Assembly (NCBI GenBank): GCA_012516935.1
Contig: JAAYVZ010000141.1
Coordinates: forward strand, 62,001-126,000
DNA from: Holophagae bacterium
GTDB lineage: Bacteria; Acidobacteriota; Thermoanaerobaculia; Thermoanaerobaculales; Thermoanaerobaculaceae
DNA: 64,000 bases
Direction: 5' to 3'
The position numbers and the translations under genes were made by a program. Position 1 is the first letter of the stretch. Every line of letters begins with the position of its first letter. Below, piece by piece: positions 33,748 through 40,752 of this stretch. The notes below the pieces were generated by a model. That model did not search any database. It saw nothing but the letters and a program-made list of their open reading frames with translations, and had not been told where the DNA came from.

Positions 33748-36700
33748 TCACCGGGCCCCGAGAGTGACCTGCGGCTGGAGCTCCTGATCTCCCCGGGCGA
33801 GCGTCACCGTCACCGTCTCGCCCGGGCGGCGGGTTCGGAGGGCGGCGGAGAGGTCCGCCAGACCCGACAGCCGCTGCTCGCCGATCGCGAGCAGCACGTC
33901 GCCAACCGCGATCCCGGCCCGCTCGGCCGGAGAGTCGGGCGTCACCTGCGCCACTCTGACTCCCGGCCCCTGAAAACCGAAGTCGGGCATGGTGCCGAGG
34001 CTGGCCCGCTGGCCACCGGTCGGCGGGGGCGCGATGGGCGCCGCGGAGGCCTGACCGAGCGTCGTCGTGAGCGGGTCGCGCCGTCCGCCCAGGTAGGAGA
34101 CCACCTCGGCCGCCACCGCGGCAACCTTGACGAGCCCAGCGGCGTCGAGCTTGTCGACGGTGTCGGACGGACGGTGGTAGTCGGCGTTGGGACCCGAGAA
34201 GAGCTGTACCGCCGGCACGCCGTGCGCAAGGCACGACACCTGGTCGGAGGCGTCGAGCTGCTCGGCGACGATCGCAACTGGCACCCCGGTGGTGGCGCCG
34301 GCGCCCATGAAAACGAACGGCCACTCGCGTGCCGAGTCCGAGCCGAGCACGTACAGCGTGCCCTCGTCGAGCCGACCCACGGTGTCCAGGTTGAGGCAGG
34401 CAACCGGCAGCTCGCCCGCCGCCATCCCAGCGAGTAGATGCTGCGAGCCGAGCTTGCCGGCCTCTTCACCGGTCACCACCGCGAACAGCAGCCGGCGCGA
34501 CGAGGGGGGTTGGGCCGCGAAGTGCCGTGCCAGCTCGAGCAGAACCGCCACGCCCGAGGCGTTATCGTCGGCCCCGGGGTGTACGCGCCCCTCGTTGCCG
34601 GCACGCACGTCCGGCCAGCCATGCCCCAGGTGATCGAGATGGGCCATAACCAACACCGGCGCCAGCCGCGGATCGGAGCCCGGCACGACACCGACCAGGT
34701 TGGTGAGCACCATCTTCCTTTCGGGCTTTCCGCCCTTCCACTCGAAGTCTTGGCGGAACGCAGCGTTCTGCCCGGGCCGCAAGCCCGCCTCGCGCATCGC
34801 CGACTCGACCCAGTCGGTGGCAGCAGCCAGCCCGGGCGTGCCGAGCCCTCGCCCCTCGCGTGCTGGGTCGGCGAGCCACGCCACCGTGCGTACCATGCGT
34901 GACCCGTCGAACACCGGTGGCAGCTTAGCGAGGGGCTCCCGTCGCGGGAGCCTGAGCTCCGGTAGCGGTCCATCCGTCAGCGACCGGACCAGTGGCGAGC
35001 CGGTCGCGGCCCAGATCCCCTTGGCCACGTTTTCGGGCGCCGCGCCGCGGAAGCCGAGGTAGCCGTACTTGCTGTAGTGGGGAAGCTTGCGCCCCAGGCC
35101 CGGGATCGCCGCCGGGGAGCTCGCTGCAAGCAGCGCTACCGCCTGCCCTGACCCTCCGGGGTGGCGGGCCACCAGCGCCAGCGAAAGATCGCTCTTGGCG
35201 AGCTGCTCGTGGCCGACGGCGACGGTCTCCGACGTGACCTTCACACCCTCCCCGGCCAACCGCTCCAGCACCGCTCCGACAAAGCGGTTCGACCAGCCGA
35301 GCACCCACACGTTACCCTCCGGCAGCACGGTGAGCTCGGAGTCCATCACCAGGTGCCCATCACCCTTACCTTTTTGCCAGACCGACACGAGGTCCCGCCA
35401 GGCGGCCAGCTCGCCCTCCCCAGCCCCGGCCGGGAGCACATAGCTGGGCCGGTCGTCGCCCAGCACGGTCGACAACGTGGGTGGAAGCTCGGCCGGGTCG
35501 AGCCGCCGCATGATGTCGAAACCAGGATCGACGTCCAAGCGGATGGGTCTGGACAGCAAAGGGACGATGGCGCTGGCCTTGCGCCCAGCCATTTGCACCA
35601 CGGCTGCTATCGCCGGTCCCTCGGTGACGGTGATGAGCACCGGGACGCGGAGCGGGAACGGCTCCTCGGGTTGCGTCTGTTCAAGCGTGAGCTCGAGCTG
35701 ATATCCAGCTCCATCCGGGAGCTCGCGGACAACCGCCGCCGCGATCGCCAGACGCGGCGCCCCCGGACGCGAGACCCAAGTCGCGAAGAAGGTCCGCCGG
35801 CTCGTGCCGGTCTCGGCCTCGAACGCTGCCTCGAGGTCGGCGAACGAGGCGCGCTGGTTGGCGTGCTTGCGCCAGAAGCGCGTGAGCCCGGCCAGGAAAG
35901 TGGCGTCACCCACATCCTGTCTCAGCATATGGAAGAGCATCAAGCTCTTGCCGTAGCCGACTGCCTCGGTGGCGGCCGAGGTGCGGGAACCGAACTCCGA
36001 GAGGGGAAAATCCTTGCCGTCGCGGACGAAATCCGAGTATTTCCTGAGCGTGTCTCGGCGGTAGCCAACACCCTCGCCGCGCTGCTCGGCTAGCAGGTGG
36101 TCGGCCATGTAGGTGGTGAGGCCCTCGCACCAGTTGCCACCCTCCGCCGCCACGTACACCGAGTTCCCCCACCAGTTGTGGAGCAGCTCGTGGGGGTACG
36201 AGGAGGTGAGGATCCAGGGAAAACGAATGACCTTCGGCCCCAGCAAGGTGAAGCCCGGCATCCCGTAGCCGGTCTCCCAGAAGTTCTCGACCAGTGCGAA
36301 CGAGGGCCAGGGGAACGCCGGAAGCATCGACTCGTACAGCGCCAGGTAGCGCTTCGTCGCATCGAGGTAGCGGCGGGCGAGCAGCGGGTCGGGCGTGCGC
36401 AGGAACGCCATGAGCTCGACGGGACCGGCCTGCTCCCGGACCTCGGTCCACGGGCCGGCGACCAGATAGACCTCCTCCACGGGGCGCTCGCACACCCACC
36501 GTTCGCGGCCCTCGCTCCTCGTGCGCCGCCCCTGACTCACGCTCCGCCACCCGGTCGGGGCGCTTGTCACCTCCAGCTCGAACGTCACGAGGGCGTCGCC
36601 GAAGGTCGGGACCCAGAAGCTGATACCGGCCAGGAACACGCCCTGCGGGTCGACGATCCCCGCTGTCTCGGAGAAGCTGCGTTGGTACTCCTCGTCCGGC

Positions 36701-37077
36701 GTTACCAGGGGGTGGTAGATCGACCCACCGTAGACGACCTCAACCTGCTCGGGAGCTTGCTGTCCCCGCAGCAGACGGTAGCTCTCGAGCGGGGCTGTGT
36801 GGACGACCGTCGCGGTCGTGGCGTTGATCCCCCCGAACGCTGCTGCCACCGGACCATCGACCGCCGCAAGGCGCCAGCCCGGCGTCACCGTGCGCGGCTG
36901 CAGCCCGGCATGGAGCACGAATTGCACGCTGTCCCCCGGCGGTGGGGTCAGGACGTCGCGTACCTCGACGCGGTGTGTTTCCGGAGTCAGGACGACAGAA
37001 AGCCGATGATGAGGAGGCGGCGCCGCGACGGCGACCGTCGCCAGCGGGACGGCGAGAACAGCGGTGAGGTGCAGCAT
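33748..37077 (-). CDS. M1 aminopeptidase-like / M28 peptidase / PDZ fusion, exported
   Basis: An 1109-residue protein. A signal peptide (MLHLTAVLAVPLATVAVAA) precedes an M1 gluzincin module with HELLH at about 296-300 and the third zinc ligand Glu in NWCEGL (about 318); no GXMEN exopeptidase motif is seen (the equivalent stretch reads GYGMPGFT). After a linker comes a complete M28 module: AHLDHLGHG (His813, Asp815), HPGADDNASG, TGEEAG, LNLDTVGR and YHRPSDT, giving all two-zinc ligands. A C-terminal PDZ domain (about 1015-1105) follows. It probably acts in the periplasm on peptides. The ATG at 37077 has GGAG upstream and TACAAT at 37093-37098. It is first in an operon with the short antiporter gene. 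Confidence 0.9.
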   Translation of the reverse strand: MLHLTAVLAVPLATVAVAAPPPHHRLSVVLTPETHRVEVRDVLTPPPGDSVQFVLHAGLQPRTVTPGWRLAAVDGPVAAAFGGINATTATVVHTAPLESYRLLRGQQAPEQVEVVYGGSIYHPLVTPDEEYQRSFSETAGIVDPQGVFLAGISFWVPTFGDALVTFELEVTSAPTGWRSVSQGRRTRSEGRERWVCERPVEEVYLVAGPWTEVREQAGPVELMAFLRTPDPLLARRYLDATKRYLALYESMLPAFPWPSFALVENFWETGYGMPGFTLLGPKVIRFPWILTSSYPHELLHNWWGNSVYVAAEGGNWCEGLTTYMADHLLAEQRGEGVGYRRDTLRKYSDFVRDGKDFPLSEFGSRTSAATEAVGYGKSLMLFHMLRQDVGDATFLAGLTRFWRKHANQRASFADLEAAFEAETGTSRRTFFATWVSRPGAPRLAIAAAVVRELPDGAGYQLELTLEQTQPEEPFPLRVPVLITVTEGPAIAAVVQMAGRKASAIVPLLSRPIRLDVDPGFDIMRRLDPAELPPTLSTVLGDDRPSYVLPAGAGEGELAAWRDLVSVWQKGKGDGHLVMDSELTVLPEGNVWVLGWSNRFVGAVLERLAGEGVKVTSETVAVGHEQLAKSDLSLALVARHPGGSGQAVALLAASSPAAIPGLGRKLPHYSKYGYLGFRGAAPENVAKGIWAATGSPLVRSLTDGPLPELRLPRREPLAKLPPVFDGSRMVRTVAWLADPAREGRGLGTPGLAAATDWVESAMREAGLRPGQNAAFRQDFEWKGGKPERKMVLTNLVGVVPGSDPRLAPVLVMAHLDHLGHGWPDVRAGNEGRVHPGADDNASGVAVLLELARHFAAQPPSSRRLLFAVVTGEEAGKLGSQHLLAGMAAGELPVACLNLDTVGRLDEGTLYVLGSDSAREWPFVFMGAGATTGVPVAIVAEQLDASDQVSCLAHGVPAVQLFSGPNADYHRPSDTVDKLDAAGLVKVAAVAAEVVSYLGGRRDPLTTTLGQASAAPIAPPPTGGQRASLGTMPDFGFQGPGVRVAQVTPDSPAERAGIAVGDVLLAIGEQRLSGLADLSAALRTRRPGETVTVTLARGDQELQPQVTLGAR

Positions 37078-37261
37078 GATCGCTCCGCGGCCATTGTACG
37101 TGGCCTTCTCCTGCAACCCCGAGGAGCGCCGCGGCATTGCCCCCTCCGACCGTACCTCCAGCTCCGAGGCGGCTGGCACCCGTCTTGCTGGTAAGCTTGC
37201 GTCGGTACGTACGGTGGGTGGTAGCCTCGGCCCAAGGTGACTGAGAAGAATGGAGATGGAA

Positions 37262-37837
37262 ATGCAGAGACGAGTGCGTCGCTCCTTGCTGCTGGCGCTC
37301 CTGATGTGGACCGGGGCCACTCTGGCACTGGCTCAGGAACGCTACTGCAACGGTCGCCCCCGTGTGCAACGGGGGGTCAAGGTGTATCCGAACGGCCGGC
37401 CCATCCAAATCGGAGATCTTGTGCTGTTCCCGAACGGCAATCCGACGACCGAGGAGGACGGCTCGCTCCTGTACCCGAGCGGCGCGCCGTTTTTCAAGAC
37501 CAAGGTCAAGGGCAAGGAGCAGCCGCGCTTCCTCTATCCCAATGGAAACACGTTGTCAAACGGCACAACCTCCTTCTACCCCAACGGCAAGGTCCTGTTC
37601 CAGAACGGCCTTTTCTACGACCAGAAGGCCAAGGTCGTGCCCCAAGGGCCGAGCCAGATCACGCTGCGGTGGCGAGACTACCACTACACCCTCGACGTGG
37701 TGGACGGGGTCCCCTCCCAGAAGGTCATCGCCATCAAGGTACGCGAGCTCGGCGTCGTGACCAGCTTCCGGCTGGAAAACGGAATGATCACCGAGGTCGA
37801 TGCCTACTGCGCCCCCCCCGAGACCCCCACGCCCTAG
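37262..37837 (+). CDS. secreted YPNG-repeat protein of unknown function
   Basis: A 191-residue protein with a signal peptide (MQRRVRRSLLLALLMWTGAT, cleavage likely after ALA-Q). The mature part begins with five imperfect repeats of 12-21 residues, each built round (V/L/F)-(Y/F)-P-(N/S)-G: KVYPNGRPI, VLFPNGNPT, LLYPSGAPF, FLYPNGNTL and SFYPNGKVL. A C-terminal beta-rich region of about 70 residues follows. The repeats resemble MORN/YwqK-type beta-hairpin repeats. The ATG at 37262 is preferred (GGAG 6 nt upstream) over ATGs at 37250 and 37256. It is divergent from the big peptidase and convergent, with a 4-bp overlap, with the phosphoglycerate mutase. Confidence 0.8.
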   Translation: MQRRVRRSLLLALLMWTGATLALAQERYCNGRPRVQRGVKVYPNGRPIQIGDLVLFPNGNPTTEEDGSLLYPSGAPFFKTKVKGKEQPRFLYPNGNTLSNGTTSFYPNGKVLFQNGLFYDQKAKVVPQGPSQITLRWRDYHYTLDVVDGVPSQKVIAIKVRELGVVTSFRLENGMITEVDAYCAPPETPTP

Positions 37838-39399
37838 GCCGCGCCCACCGGCCGGCCAATCCCGTGCACCAGAAGGTCGTAGGCGCGTCGCACCCGGTCC
37901 CAGTGCTGCTCGCGGTCGAGCGCCCAGTAGCGACCGATGACCGACACCAACCGGCCCAGCCCGAGCTCGGCGACGCGCTTTTCGACCAGCGCAACGTAGT
38001 CGGCTCCGGACTGCGGCCGCTCGCCACGTCGCCCGAGCAAACCGTGGACGAACACTTCCGGCACACCGACCCGGCGCGCCAGCTCGAGCAAGGCGAACAG
38101 GTGGTCCAAGCTGCCGTGCGAGGAAAAGAAGGAGACGATCCCCAGCAGGTGCAGTGGTCGCCGAGTATCGCGGGCCGCCTCGGCGGCCCAACGAAACGCC
38201 TCGTTGGTGAAAAAGCTGCCGTCCTCGATCGCCTCGGCGATGCGTACCCGGTCGGCCGGCACCACGCGGCCGGCGCCGAGGTGGAGGTGGCCGGCCTCGG
38301 AGTTGCCGACCGTGCCCGGTGGCAAGCCGACGGCCTCGCCGGCAGCCGCGAGGAGGGTGTGGGGGAACGCCCCCTGCAGCTCGTCCATAGCCGGCGTCGG
38401 CGTCGCAGCGATGAGGTTTCCGGGGCCCGGTGCAGCCACCCCCCAGCCGTCGCAAATCACGAGGAGCACACGACCGCAGCGCGGTAGCGACCCGCAAGCC
38501 AGCAAGCTGCGGCCGGTCATCTCTGCCGGCTTGTCGAGACCCAAAAGGTCGAGGATGGTCGGCGCCACGTCGCTGAGCGATCCTCCGTCGCGCAGCCGGC
38601 AGGACACCGCTCCCGGAGGCGGCACCACCAGGCAGGGGACGGGAGAGTCCGTGTGGCCGGTGTCGACCGTGCCTTCCGGAAACAGCCAGCGCTCCACCGT
38701 ACCGTGGTCGGCCGTGACCACGGCCGCAACCCCGCAGCGCCGAGCCGCTCGTACCATCCGACCCACCGCGGTGTCGACCGCCATCACAGCCTGCTCGATG
38801 GCGTCACGGCACTCACTATGGCCAACCACGTCGATGTTGGCGAGGTTGGCCACGATGAGTGCCTGAGCCGGGTCGGCGAGCTCCGCCTCGACGGCGTCGG
38901 CGACCTCTGCGGCGCGCATGGCCGGCGAGACGAGTGGCTCAGCGGGCGAGTCGAGCACGATCCGCCGCTCGCGCGGGAACGCCTCTTGGCGCTTGCCGGC
39001 AAAAAAGTACGAGACGTGGATCGCCTTCTCGCTCTCGGCCACACGGCTCTGACCCAGGCCGCTTCGACTCACCACTTCGGCGAGCGTGCCTCGCAGGTGT
39101 TCGAGCGGTGGAAACCCCACCCGTACCGGCAGCTTCGCGTCGTACTCGATCATCGTAACGAAGCGGAGATCCAAGCGCTCGACCGGGAACGGCGCGAACG
39201 TCGGGTCGACGAGAGCGGCGGTCAGCTCGACCTCGCGCTCGCCCCGGAGGTCATAGAAGATCACCGAATCGCCGGGCTCGATCCGCCCCACGGCGTGGCC
39301 GTCTCCAGCGACGCGGACCAACGGCTCCATGCGTTCCTCATCCTGACCTCGGCCATAAGCCGCCCGTACCGCCTCCGACATGCAAGAATCGATCACCAT
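37834..39399 (-). CDS. circularly permuted 2,3-bisphosphoglycerate-independent phosphoglycerate mutase-like protein
   Basis: A 521-residue protein with clear iPGM (GpmI/GpmM) homology but halves swapped. Residues 1-305 match iPGM from about residue 225 to the end: GRIEPGDSVIF, LRGER, FVTMIEYDA, SEKAIHV with Lys125, NIDVVGH with Asp190/His194, TADHG with Asp231/His232, TGHTDSPVP with His249, and DVAPTILDLLGL. After a short linker with two Cys, residues 312-521 match the iPGM start: VICDGWGV (Asp317), TVGNSEAGH with the nucleophile Ser367, SSHGSLDHLFALLEL, IGRYWALDRE, AYDLLVHG. The usual DGRD loop reads GRRG. The N-terminal helix (SEAVRAAYGRG) follows on directly from the C-terminal end of the canonical order. 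An alternative ATG is at 39381. Glycolytic mutase activity is inferred, not certain. Confidence 0.9.
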   Translation of the reverse strand: MVIDSCMSEAVRAAYGRGQDEERMEPLVRVAGDGHAVGRIEPGDSVIFYDLRGEREVELTAALVDPTFAPFPVERLDLRFVTMIEYDAKLPVRVGFPPLEHLRGTLAEVVSRSGLGQSRVAESEKAIHVSYFFAGKRQEAFPRERRIVLDSPAEPLVSPAMRAAEVADAVEAELADPAQALIVANLANIDVVGHSECRDAIEQAVMAVDTAVGRMVRAARRCGVAAVVTADHGTVERWLFPEGTVDTGHTDSPVPCLVVPPPGAVSCRLRDGGSLSDVAPTILDLLGLDKPAEMTGRSLLACGSLPRCGRVLLVICDGWGVAAPGPGNLIAATPTPAMDELQGAFPHTLLAAAGEAVGLPPGTVGNSEAGHLHLGAGRVVPADRVRIAEAIEDGSFFTNEAFRWAAEAARDTRRPLHLLGIVSFFSSHGSLDHLFALLELARRVGVPEVFVHGLLGRRGERPQSGADYVALVEKRVAELGLGRLVSVIGRYWALDREQHWDRVRRAYDLLVHGIGRPVGAA

Positions 39400-39510: not shown

Positions 39511-40752
39511 ATGGCTCGCAAGAAGGTGATCTTCGAGGACACGCTGGCGCTGGTCTTGGCCGGGGGCCAGGGGGGCCGGCTTTCTCCCCTCACCAGCGAC
39601 CGGTCGAAACCGGCGGTGCCGTTCGGTGGGATGTACCGCATCATCGACTTCACGCTCTCCAACTGCCTCAACTCGGGGCTCAGGAAGATCTTCGTGCTCA
39701 CCCAGTACAAGTCGGGGAGCCTCGAGCGACACATCCAGCTCGGCTGGAATCCGGTGTTCTCGGTTGAGCTCGGCGAGTGGATCTACACCGTGCCGCCGCA
39801 GCTGCGAATCGGCCAGCGGTGGTACCTGGGCACCGCCGACGCGGTGTTCCAGAACGTGTACCTGCTCGAGCAAGTGCGGCCGGCTCGGGTGATGATCCTC
39901 TCCGGCGACCACGTCTACAAGATGAACTACAGCACGATGCTCGATTTCCACGATGGGCGGGAGGCGTTGGCGACGATCGCTGTCGTCGAGGTGCCAATCG
40001 AGCAGGCGAGTGCGTTCGGGGTCGTCGAGGTGGATGCGGACTGGCGCATCGTCGGCTTCCAGGAGAAGCCGACGAACCCCGTTCCCGTGCCCGGTAAGGC
40101 CGGTGTTGCGCTGGTCAACATGGGGGTCTACTGCTTCGAGACCGACACCCTCATCGAGGTCGTCTCCCGGGACGCGGAGCACCAGACCCGCCACGATTTC
40201 GGGCACGACATCCTGCCATCCATGGTGGCGAGCGGCCGGCTGTTCGCCTTTCCGTTCGTGGACGAAAACCGCAAGCAGGTGGCGTACTGGAGAGACATCG
40301 GCACCCTCGACTCGTACTTCGATGCCAGCATGGACCTCGTCTCGGTCGACCCGGTGTTCAACCTCTACGATCGAGCATGGCCGTTGCGCACCCTCCCCCA
40401 GCAGCTCCCTCCGGCCAAGACCGTCTTCGCCCAAGAAGAACCGGGAGGACGTGCCGGCATGATCCTGGACTCGGCCGTGTGCGGCGGGGTGATCGTGTCC
40501 GGCGGACGGGTCGAGAGGTCGATCCTCGGCCCGGAGGTCCGGGTCAACAGCTTCGCGCGGGTCACCGACTGCGTCCTCATGGACGGCGTGCAGGTGGGCC
40601 GCCACGCCCGTCTCACCCGCGCCATCGTCGACAAGGGGGTGGTCATTCCGCCCGGCTTCGTGATCGGCGAGAACGCCGTCGAAGACTGCAACCGCTTCAC
40701 GGTCAGCGAGCGCGGCGTGGTGGTGATCGCCAAGAGGATGGTGTTGAGCTGA
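39511..40752 (+). CDS. glgC: glucose-1-phosphate adenylyltransferase
   Basis: A 413-residue ADP-glucose pyrophosphorylase that makes ADP-glucose for glycogen synthesis. The nucleotidyltransferase core has LVLAGGQGGRLSPLTSDRSKPAVPFGG, the IDFTLSNCLNSG block, WYLGTADAVFQN, ILSGDHVYKMNY and the FQEKPTNP block with the sugar-phosphate-binding Lys. A C-terminal left-handed beta-helix (about 290-400) carries the allosteric-type region. The ATG at 39511 (MARKKVIFEDT) has GGAGGAGG upstream. No glgA or glgB lies next to it; it is divergent from the permuted phosphoglycerate mutase. Confidence 0.96.
   Translation: MARKKVIFEDTLALVLAGGQGGRLSPLTSDRSKPAVPFGGMYRIIDFTLSNCLNSGLRKIFVLTQYKSGSLERHIQLGWNPVFSVELGEWIYTVPPQLRIGQRWYLGTADAVFQNVYLLEQVRPARVMILSGDHVYKMNYSTMLDFHDGREALATIAVVEVPIEQASAFGVVEVDADWRIVGFQEKPTNPVPVPGKAGVALVNMGVYCFETDTLIEVVSRDAEHQTRHDFGHDILPSMVASGRLFAFPFVDENRKQVAYWRDIGTLDSYFDASMDLVSVDPVFNLYDRAWPLRTLPQQLPPAKTVFAQEEPGGRAGMILDSAVCGGVIVSGGRVERSILGPEVRVNSFARVTDCVLMDGVQVGRHARLTRAIVDKGVVIPPGFVIGENAVEDCNRFTVSERGVVVIAKRMVLS

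Follow-up and report, generated by a model that had tools for sequence, protein, structure and literature searches.

A naturally occurring, circularly permuted relative of cofactor-independent phosphoglycerate mutase in a Holophagae bacterium and in Clostridia

Within the stretch of 64,000 nucleotides from a Holophagae bacterium that was analysed here (the window), one gene encodes a protein, P0001, which beyond reasonable doubt is a circularly permuted member of the cofactor-independent phosphoglycerate mutase (iPGM) family. From the retained catalytic residues and the changed substrate pocket, we infer that it is probably a naturally permuted phosphomutase or phosphotransferase of the iPGM family (alkaline phosphatase superfamily), with a substrate that is most likely neither 2- nor 3-phosphoglycerate. 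The same order was found in Clostridia, where the gene is part of a recurrent operon.

The open reading frame starts with ATG and codes for 521 amino acids. Using phmmer, the iPGM of B. stearothermophilus (1EJJ) was identified as the best match among the solved structures (E = 2e-107 for the whole sequence), and the alignment consists of two collinear blocks in swapped order (Table 1). The Pfam family iPGM_N is cut by the break, with the model positions 135-217 in the N-terminal and 1-130 in the C-terminal part of P0001. As essentially each residue of a normal iPGM occurs once, the break is clean, as was stated in the initial annotation, which had placed it at about residues 220-228 of a normal iPGM instead of the approximately 210-218 found here. 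The residues listed there (Ser367, Asp317, Asp190, His194, Asp231, His232, His249, and Lys125) are all present. The linker does contain the two cysteines that had been described, but it is about 10 and not about 8 residues long, and the cysteines are private to P0001 and not conserved in its relatives. Where listed, the linkers of other permuted members also have about 10 residues.

Table 1. Features of the permuted gene and its divergent neighbour (window positions; residue numbers of 1EJJ in brackets).
Feature	Position	Strand	Basis
Whole gene, circularly permuted iPGM-family protein P0001	37834..39399	-	ORF call, TIGR01307, phmmer
Residues 9-300, canonical iPGM C-terminal half (1EJJ 218-509), now first; contains Arg52, Arg55 (R261, R264), Lys125 (K336), Asp190/His194, Asp231/His232, His249	38500..39375	-	phmmer, residue table
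Residues 301-310, linker from old C terminus to old N terminus	38470..38499	-	phmmer
Residues 311-515, canonical iPGM N-terminal half (1EJJ 6-210), now last; contains Asp317 (D12), Ser367 (S62, phosphoserine), His428 (H123), Arg490, Arg496	37855..38469	-	phmmer, residue table
Gly459 codon, equivalent of Asp154	38023..38025	-	residue comparison, AF2 model
glgC-type glucose-1-phosphate nucleotidyltransferase, divergent neighbour	39511..40752	+	Pfam

The glgC-like gene is the sole neighbour shared within the window genus and is divergent in the genus-mate G001 as well (L090 ORFs). On the other side, a gene for a protein with repeated YPNG motifs and no Pfam family (window 37250-37837) converges on the permuted gene, the ends overlapping by 4 bases. 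The window also contains a very long ORF (33748-37320), in which parts resembling an M1 peptidase, an M28 peptidase and a PDZ domain were seen by inspection and whose true start is probably located downstream of the listed GTG.

The structure of P0001 was predicted with AlphaFold2 (AF2) from its own sequence, those of two Clostridial members and the unaltered halves of canonical relatives. The model reached a mean pLDDT of 93 and a pTM of 0.84, and the only stretch with a pLDDT below 50 is formed by residues 459-462, including Gly459. A Foldseek search against the PDB returned only iPGMs below an E-value of 0.001, each matched via about half of the chain (e.g., 4MY4, 265 columns, 2.1 A, TM 0.47), which is the outcome to be anticipated if a permuted chain is aligned sequentially. 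The permuted protein is predicted to fold like an iPGM.

A first survey of 80 relatives in genome contigs revealed two further permuted genes, both Clostridial (L009 and L010), and the remaining relatives have the canonical order or, where the contig ends, one half only. Targeted searches brought the total to 19 permuted proteins, encoded in 18 genomes, two of the window genus and 16 of Clostridia. All 19 have the swapped order, among them the protein of the genus-mate, which is 73% identical to P0001. The permuted gene occurs in 2 of 149 genomes of the window's class, both from the window genus, and in 13 of 200 genomes of the family of G060; G061, G115, and G810 are single cases within larger samples, and G1092 carries two copies. 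This rare and patchy distribution may point to horizontal transfer. No relatives were found on viral contigs, and of 44 matches in plasmid records the ten listed were all in two pieces, as the canonical order gives.

An assembly or sequencing artefact, i.e., a chimera of two iPGM copies, was considered since the window genome is a fragmented draft of 293 contigs. The gene, however, is internal to a long contig, the genome has no other iPGM_N locus, and the identical order is found in the independently assembled genomes of the genus-mate and of 16 Clostridia, whose proteins form one clade with P0001 and share derived residues in both halves. With 17 further genomes carrying the swapped order, a chimera is ruled out for all practical purposes.

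The two copies in G1092 are paralogs on either side of an ABC transporter (L189, 4579-6249 and 12094-13794), the first of which has GSD at positions 152-154 versus GRS or GRD. In Clostridiaceae strain 9 (L010/G061), there is an apparent frameshift in the permuted gene at around 6200. A canonical iPGM of G060 (G060:C89:2050-3328) is also split into frames. Either case may reflect a sequencing error or decay.

When the six permuted members found first were rotated back to the canonical order, they formed one branch with an SH-aLRT support of 97. For 18 members, the halves were analysed separately, and in both cases the permuted proteins were located on one side of a branch (support 88 for the N half and 96 for the C half). 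Furthermore, the breakpoints agree within a few residues. On this phylogenetic evidence, the permutation appears to have arisen once; independent permutations in the window genus and the Clostridia are not favoured, because each half gives one clade and the breakpoints coincide.

Between P0001 and the protein of the genus-mate, a dN/dS of about 0.19 (NG86) was calculated, and 102, 87, and 248 of 519 codons differ at the first, second and third position, respectively. This low ratio and the excess of third-position differences indicate purifying selection on the permuted protein. The family thus forms one clade in independent genomes and is under purifying selection with an intact reading frame, apart from the frameshifted member mentioned above. 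The circular permutation proposed in the initial annotation is therefore borne out by the sequence blocks, the AF2 model, its presence in 18 genomes, the single clade and the dN/dS, and the search of related genomes that had been called for shows the order to recur. Circularly permuted proteins usually originate by tandem duplication, fusion and trimming. Here, an iPGM gene was probably duplicated in tandem and fused, after which the outer halves would have been lost, so that the chain now starts and ends within the transferase domain.

Active-site residues were compared in 1EJJ numbering between the 19 permuted and 96 canonical proteins, the latter retrieved by using P0001 as query and hence not a random sample. 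All 19 permuted proteins retain the metal and phosphoserine residues D12, S62, D403, H407, D444, H445, and H462. Among the substrate-binding residues, H123, R185, and R191 are kept in 19 of 19, R153 in 18 of 19, and R261, R264, and K336 in all 18 proteins with a readable position. The position of Asp154, which we take to contact a substrate hydroxyl, is Asp in 96 of 96 canonical proteins, whereas the permuted proteins have Ser (16), Gly (two, in the window genus) or Asp (one). The single member retaining Asp154 has lost Arg153, and an intact Arg153-Asp154 pair is found in none of the 19 permuted proteins, compared with all 96 canonical ones. Within the substrate set (H123, R153, D154, R185, R191, R261, R264, K336), the window protein differs at D154 alone. 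The His123 loop (119-125), DGGVHSH in canonical proteins, is rewritten to xxSSHGx. Neither this rewriting nor the exchange at position 154 was noted in the initial annotation. The replacements V64A, G121S, V122S, and S124G were found in 19 of 19 permuted proteins and D263E, A265E, and T334S in all 18 that are readable. The window genus retains some canonical features that are lost in Clostridia, such as GRY versus the Clostridial GRG. According to the legend of Fig. 4 in PMC5382265, the phosphoglycerate-binding residues on which the S. aureus iPGM was superposed include positions 153-154; apart from this legend, no literature on the role of Asp154 by residue name was found.

Since the metal and serine residues are kept and position 154 and the loop are altered, the phosphoserine chemistry is probably retained and the substrate side changed. 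In the proposed mechanism, the two-metal site would transfer a phosphoryl group from the substrate to Ser367, from which either the substrate or another acceptor would then receive it. The pocket is remodelled on its acceptor and substrate side throughout the permuted family. Because the transferase domain retains its arginines, the substrate may still be a phospho-acid and conceivably even phosphoglycerate.

The protein could be a bona fide phosphoglycerate mutase that is merely permuted, with residue changes that tune the reaction, and that duplicates GpmA in the window genus or iPGM in Clostridia. This would be in line with the retained substrate residues and with the equivalog TIGR01307, which scored 435 bits for P0001 (NCBIfam cut-off 331) and was above its cut-off in every permuted member tested. 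The divergent glgC would fit a role at the branch point of 3-PGA and glycogen, where the cyanobacterial iPGM is a control point (PMC12077085). On the other hand, the Arg153-Asp154 pair is broken throughout, the whole 119-125 loop is rewritten, and the window genome (98% complete) already encodes a GpmA-type 2,3-BPG-dependent phosphoglycerate mutase (dPGM; L007, NF010713 with 420 bits versus a cut-off of 305). With this enzyme present, the permuted protein is dispensable as glycolytic phosphoglycerate mutase in the window genome, and its being the sole such enzyme of the host is ruled out. The co-occurrence of dPGM and iPGM in one genome has precedent in diverse bacteria, and iPGM paralogs were rare among 702 genomes surveyed (PMC2964296). 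Among the Clostridial hosts, a separate canonical iPGM with unsplit iPGM_N was found in 8 of 16 (partial or frameshifted in two), and a search limited to iPGM gave none in the other eight, whose genomes may be incomplete. Taken together, a genuine phosphoglycerate mutase is considered unlikely.

The window genome also contains an ApgM-like gene directly after the threonine synthase gene thrC (L003, 1501-2754), and its score exceeds the cut-offs of an iPGM model and of TIGR02535, a proposed homoserine kinase.

In at least eight Clostridial genomes, three to four HAD hydrolase genes are located directly before the permuted gene, and in most of these a PfkB kinase gene follows it (L180-L187, L131, L134, L135). 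A divergent LacI regulator is found nearby in several loci. Genes for the permease, the UgpC-like ATPase and the solute-binding protein of an ABC importer, together with one for a small membrane protein that is conserved and has about 170 aa, are likewise close to the permuted gene in several, including the deepest copies. The best solved match of the kinase is TM0415 (E 6e-39), a PPi-dependent kinase that phosphorylates myo-inositol and whose true acceptor may, according to its own paper, be another compound (PMC5931981). Four of the five PPi signature residues (K171, R229, R232, and M266) are kept in the kinase of L183, and F221 is replaced by Val. The solute-binding protein had no match in the PDB.

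From its gene content, the Clostridial cluster seems to serve the uptake and processing of a phosphorylated compound, for which inositol phosphate or a related polyol phosphate is our best guess. The compound would probably enter the cell through the linked importer and be processed by the HAD phosphatases and the TM0415-like kinase. In the window genus, this operon is absent from the vicinity of the permuted gene, and no match to the kinase was obtained when the two genomes (G000, G001) were searched, without a positive control there. Because of this and of the retained GRY, the function may differ between the window genus and the Clostridia.

The adjoining HAD phosphatases could also be taken as a sign that the permuted protein is itself a phosphatase, in which the phosphoserine forms and water takes the phosphate in place of the other hydroxyl of the substrate, as in the alkaline phosphatase relatives. 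The intact metal and serine residues and the loss of the substrate-binding Asp of the transferase domain would agree with this. Since the entire transferase domain and its conserved arginines, which a simple phosphatase would not need, are under the purifying selection described above, this explanation is regarded as quite improbable.

The preferred explanation thus remains a permuted phosphomutase or phosphotransferase, and the evidence on its substrate leans towards a compound other than phosphoglycerate. The designation as iPGM given in the initial annotation holds for fold, ancestry and catalytic residues and fails at the substrate-binding pair; a working phosphoglycerate mutase is unsupported in view of the host's GpmA, the broken pair and the operon setting in Clostridia. 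More tentatively, and with slightly less than even confidence, the family may be a neofunctionalised one derived from a glycolytic enzyme, which would belong to a Clostridial operon for import and catabolism of an organophosphate (perhaps inositol phosphate) and would have passed on its own to an apparently acidobacterial lineage, with both family and operon undescribed so far. In agreement with the initial annotation, the open-access literature searched yielded no report of an iPGM that is circularly permuted in nature, although such an absence is not proof.

The family offers a rare opportunity to study jointly the natural permutation of a central-metabolism enzyme, a pocket change and a new genomic setting, in a clade that has persisted in two distant groups of bacteria. 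Since annotation pipelines would label the permuted genes gpmI, the databases probably contain them unrecognised, with the risk of misleading metabolic reconstructions. The Clostridial operon is a concrete and testable lead to a new phosphorylated-nutrient pathway in gut and rumen bacteria.

Among known systems, the closest is iPGM/GpmI itself (TIGR01307; iPGM_N PF06415 nested in Metalloenzyme PF01676; 1EJJ), to which the permuted protein is homologous over about its whole length with approximately 38-49% identity by half. Metal ligands, phosphoserine, Lys336 and substrate arginines are retained, whereas the permuted proteins have swapped halves with ends at about 210-218, a broken Arg153-Asp154 pair, a new 119-125 loop and the substitutions D263E, A265E, V64A, T334S, and M404V. 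ApgM/aPGM and the proposed ApgM-like homoserine kinase (TIGR00306, TIGR02535) belong to the same superfamily and share the serine/two-metal site, but they have the normal order, their similarity is weak and partial, and the window genome has a separate copy (L003); the proposed kinase is an example of a substrate change within the superfamily. GpmA (NF010713) catalyses the reaction assigned in the initial annotation with an unrelated fold and mechanism. The Clostridial PfkB kinase is closest to the TM0415-type PPi-dependent myo-inositol kinase (1VK4, 5YSP; PMC5931981), although the Clostridial operon is unlike the Thermotoga inositol operon of TM0415. Compared with these systems, the permuted iPGM relatives are best read as an undescribed subfamily with a substrate other than phosphoglycerate.
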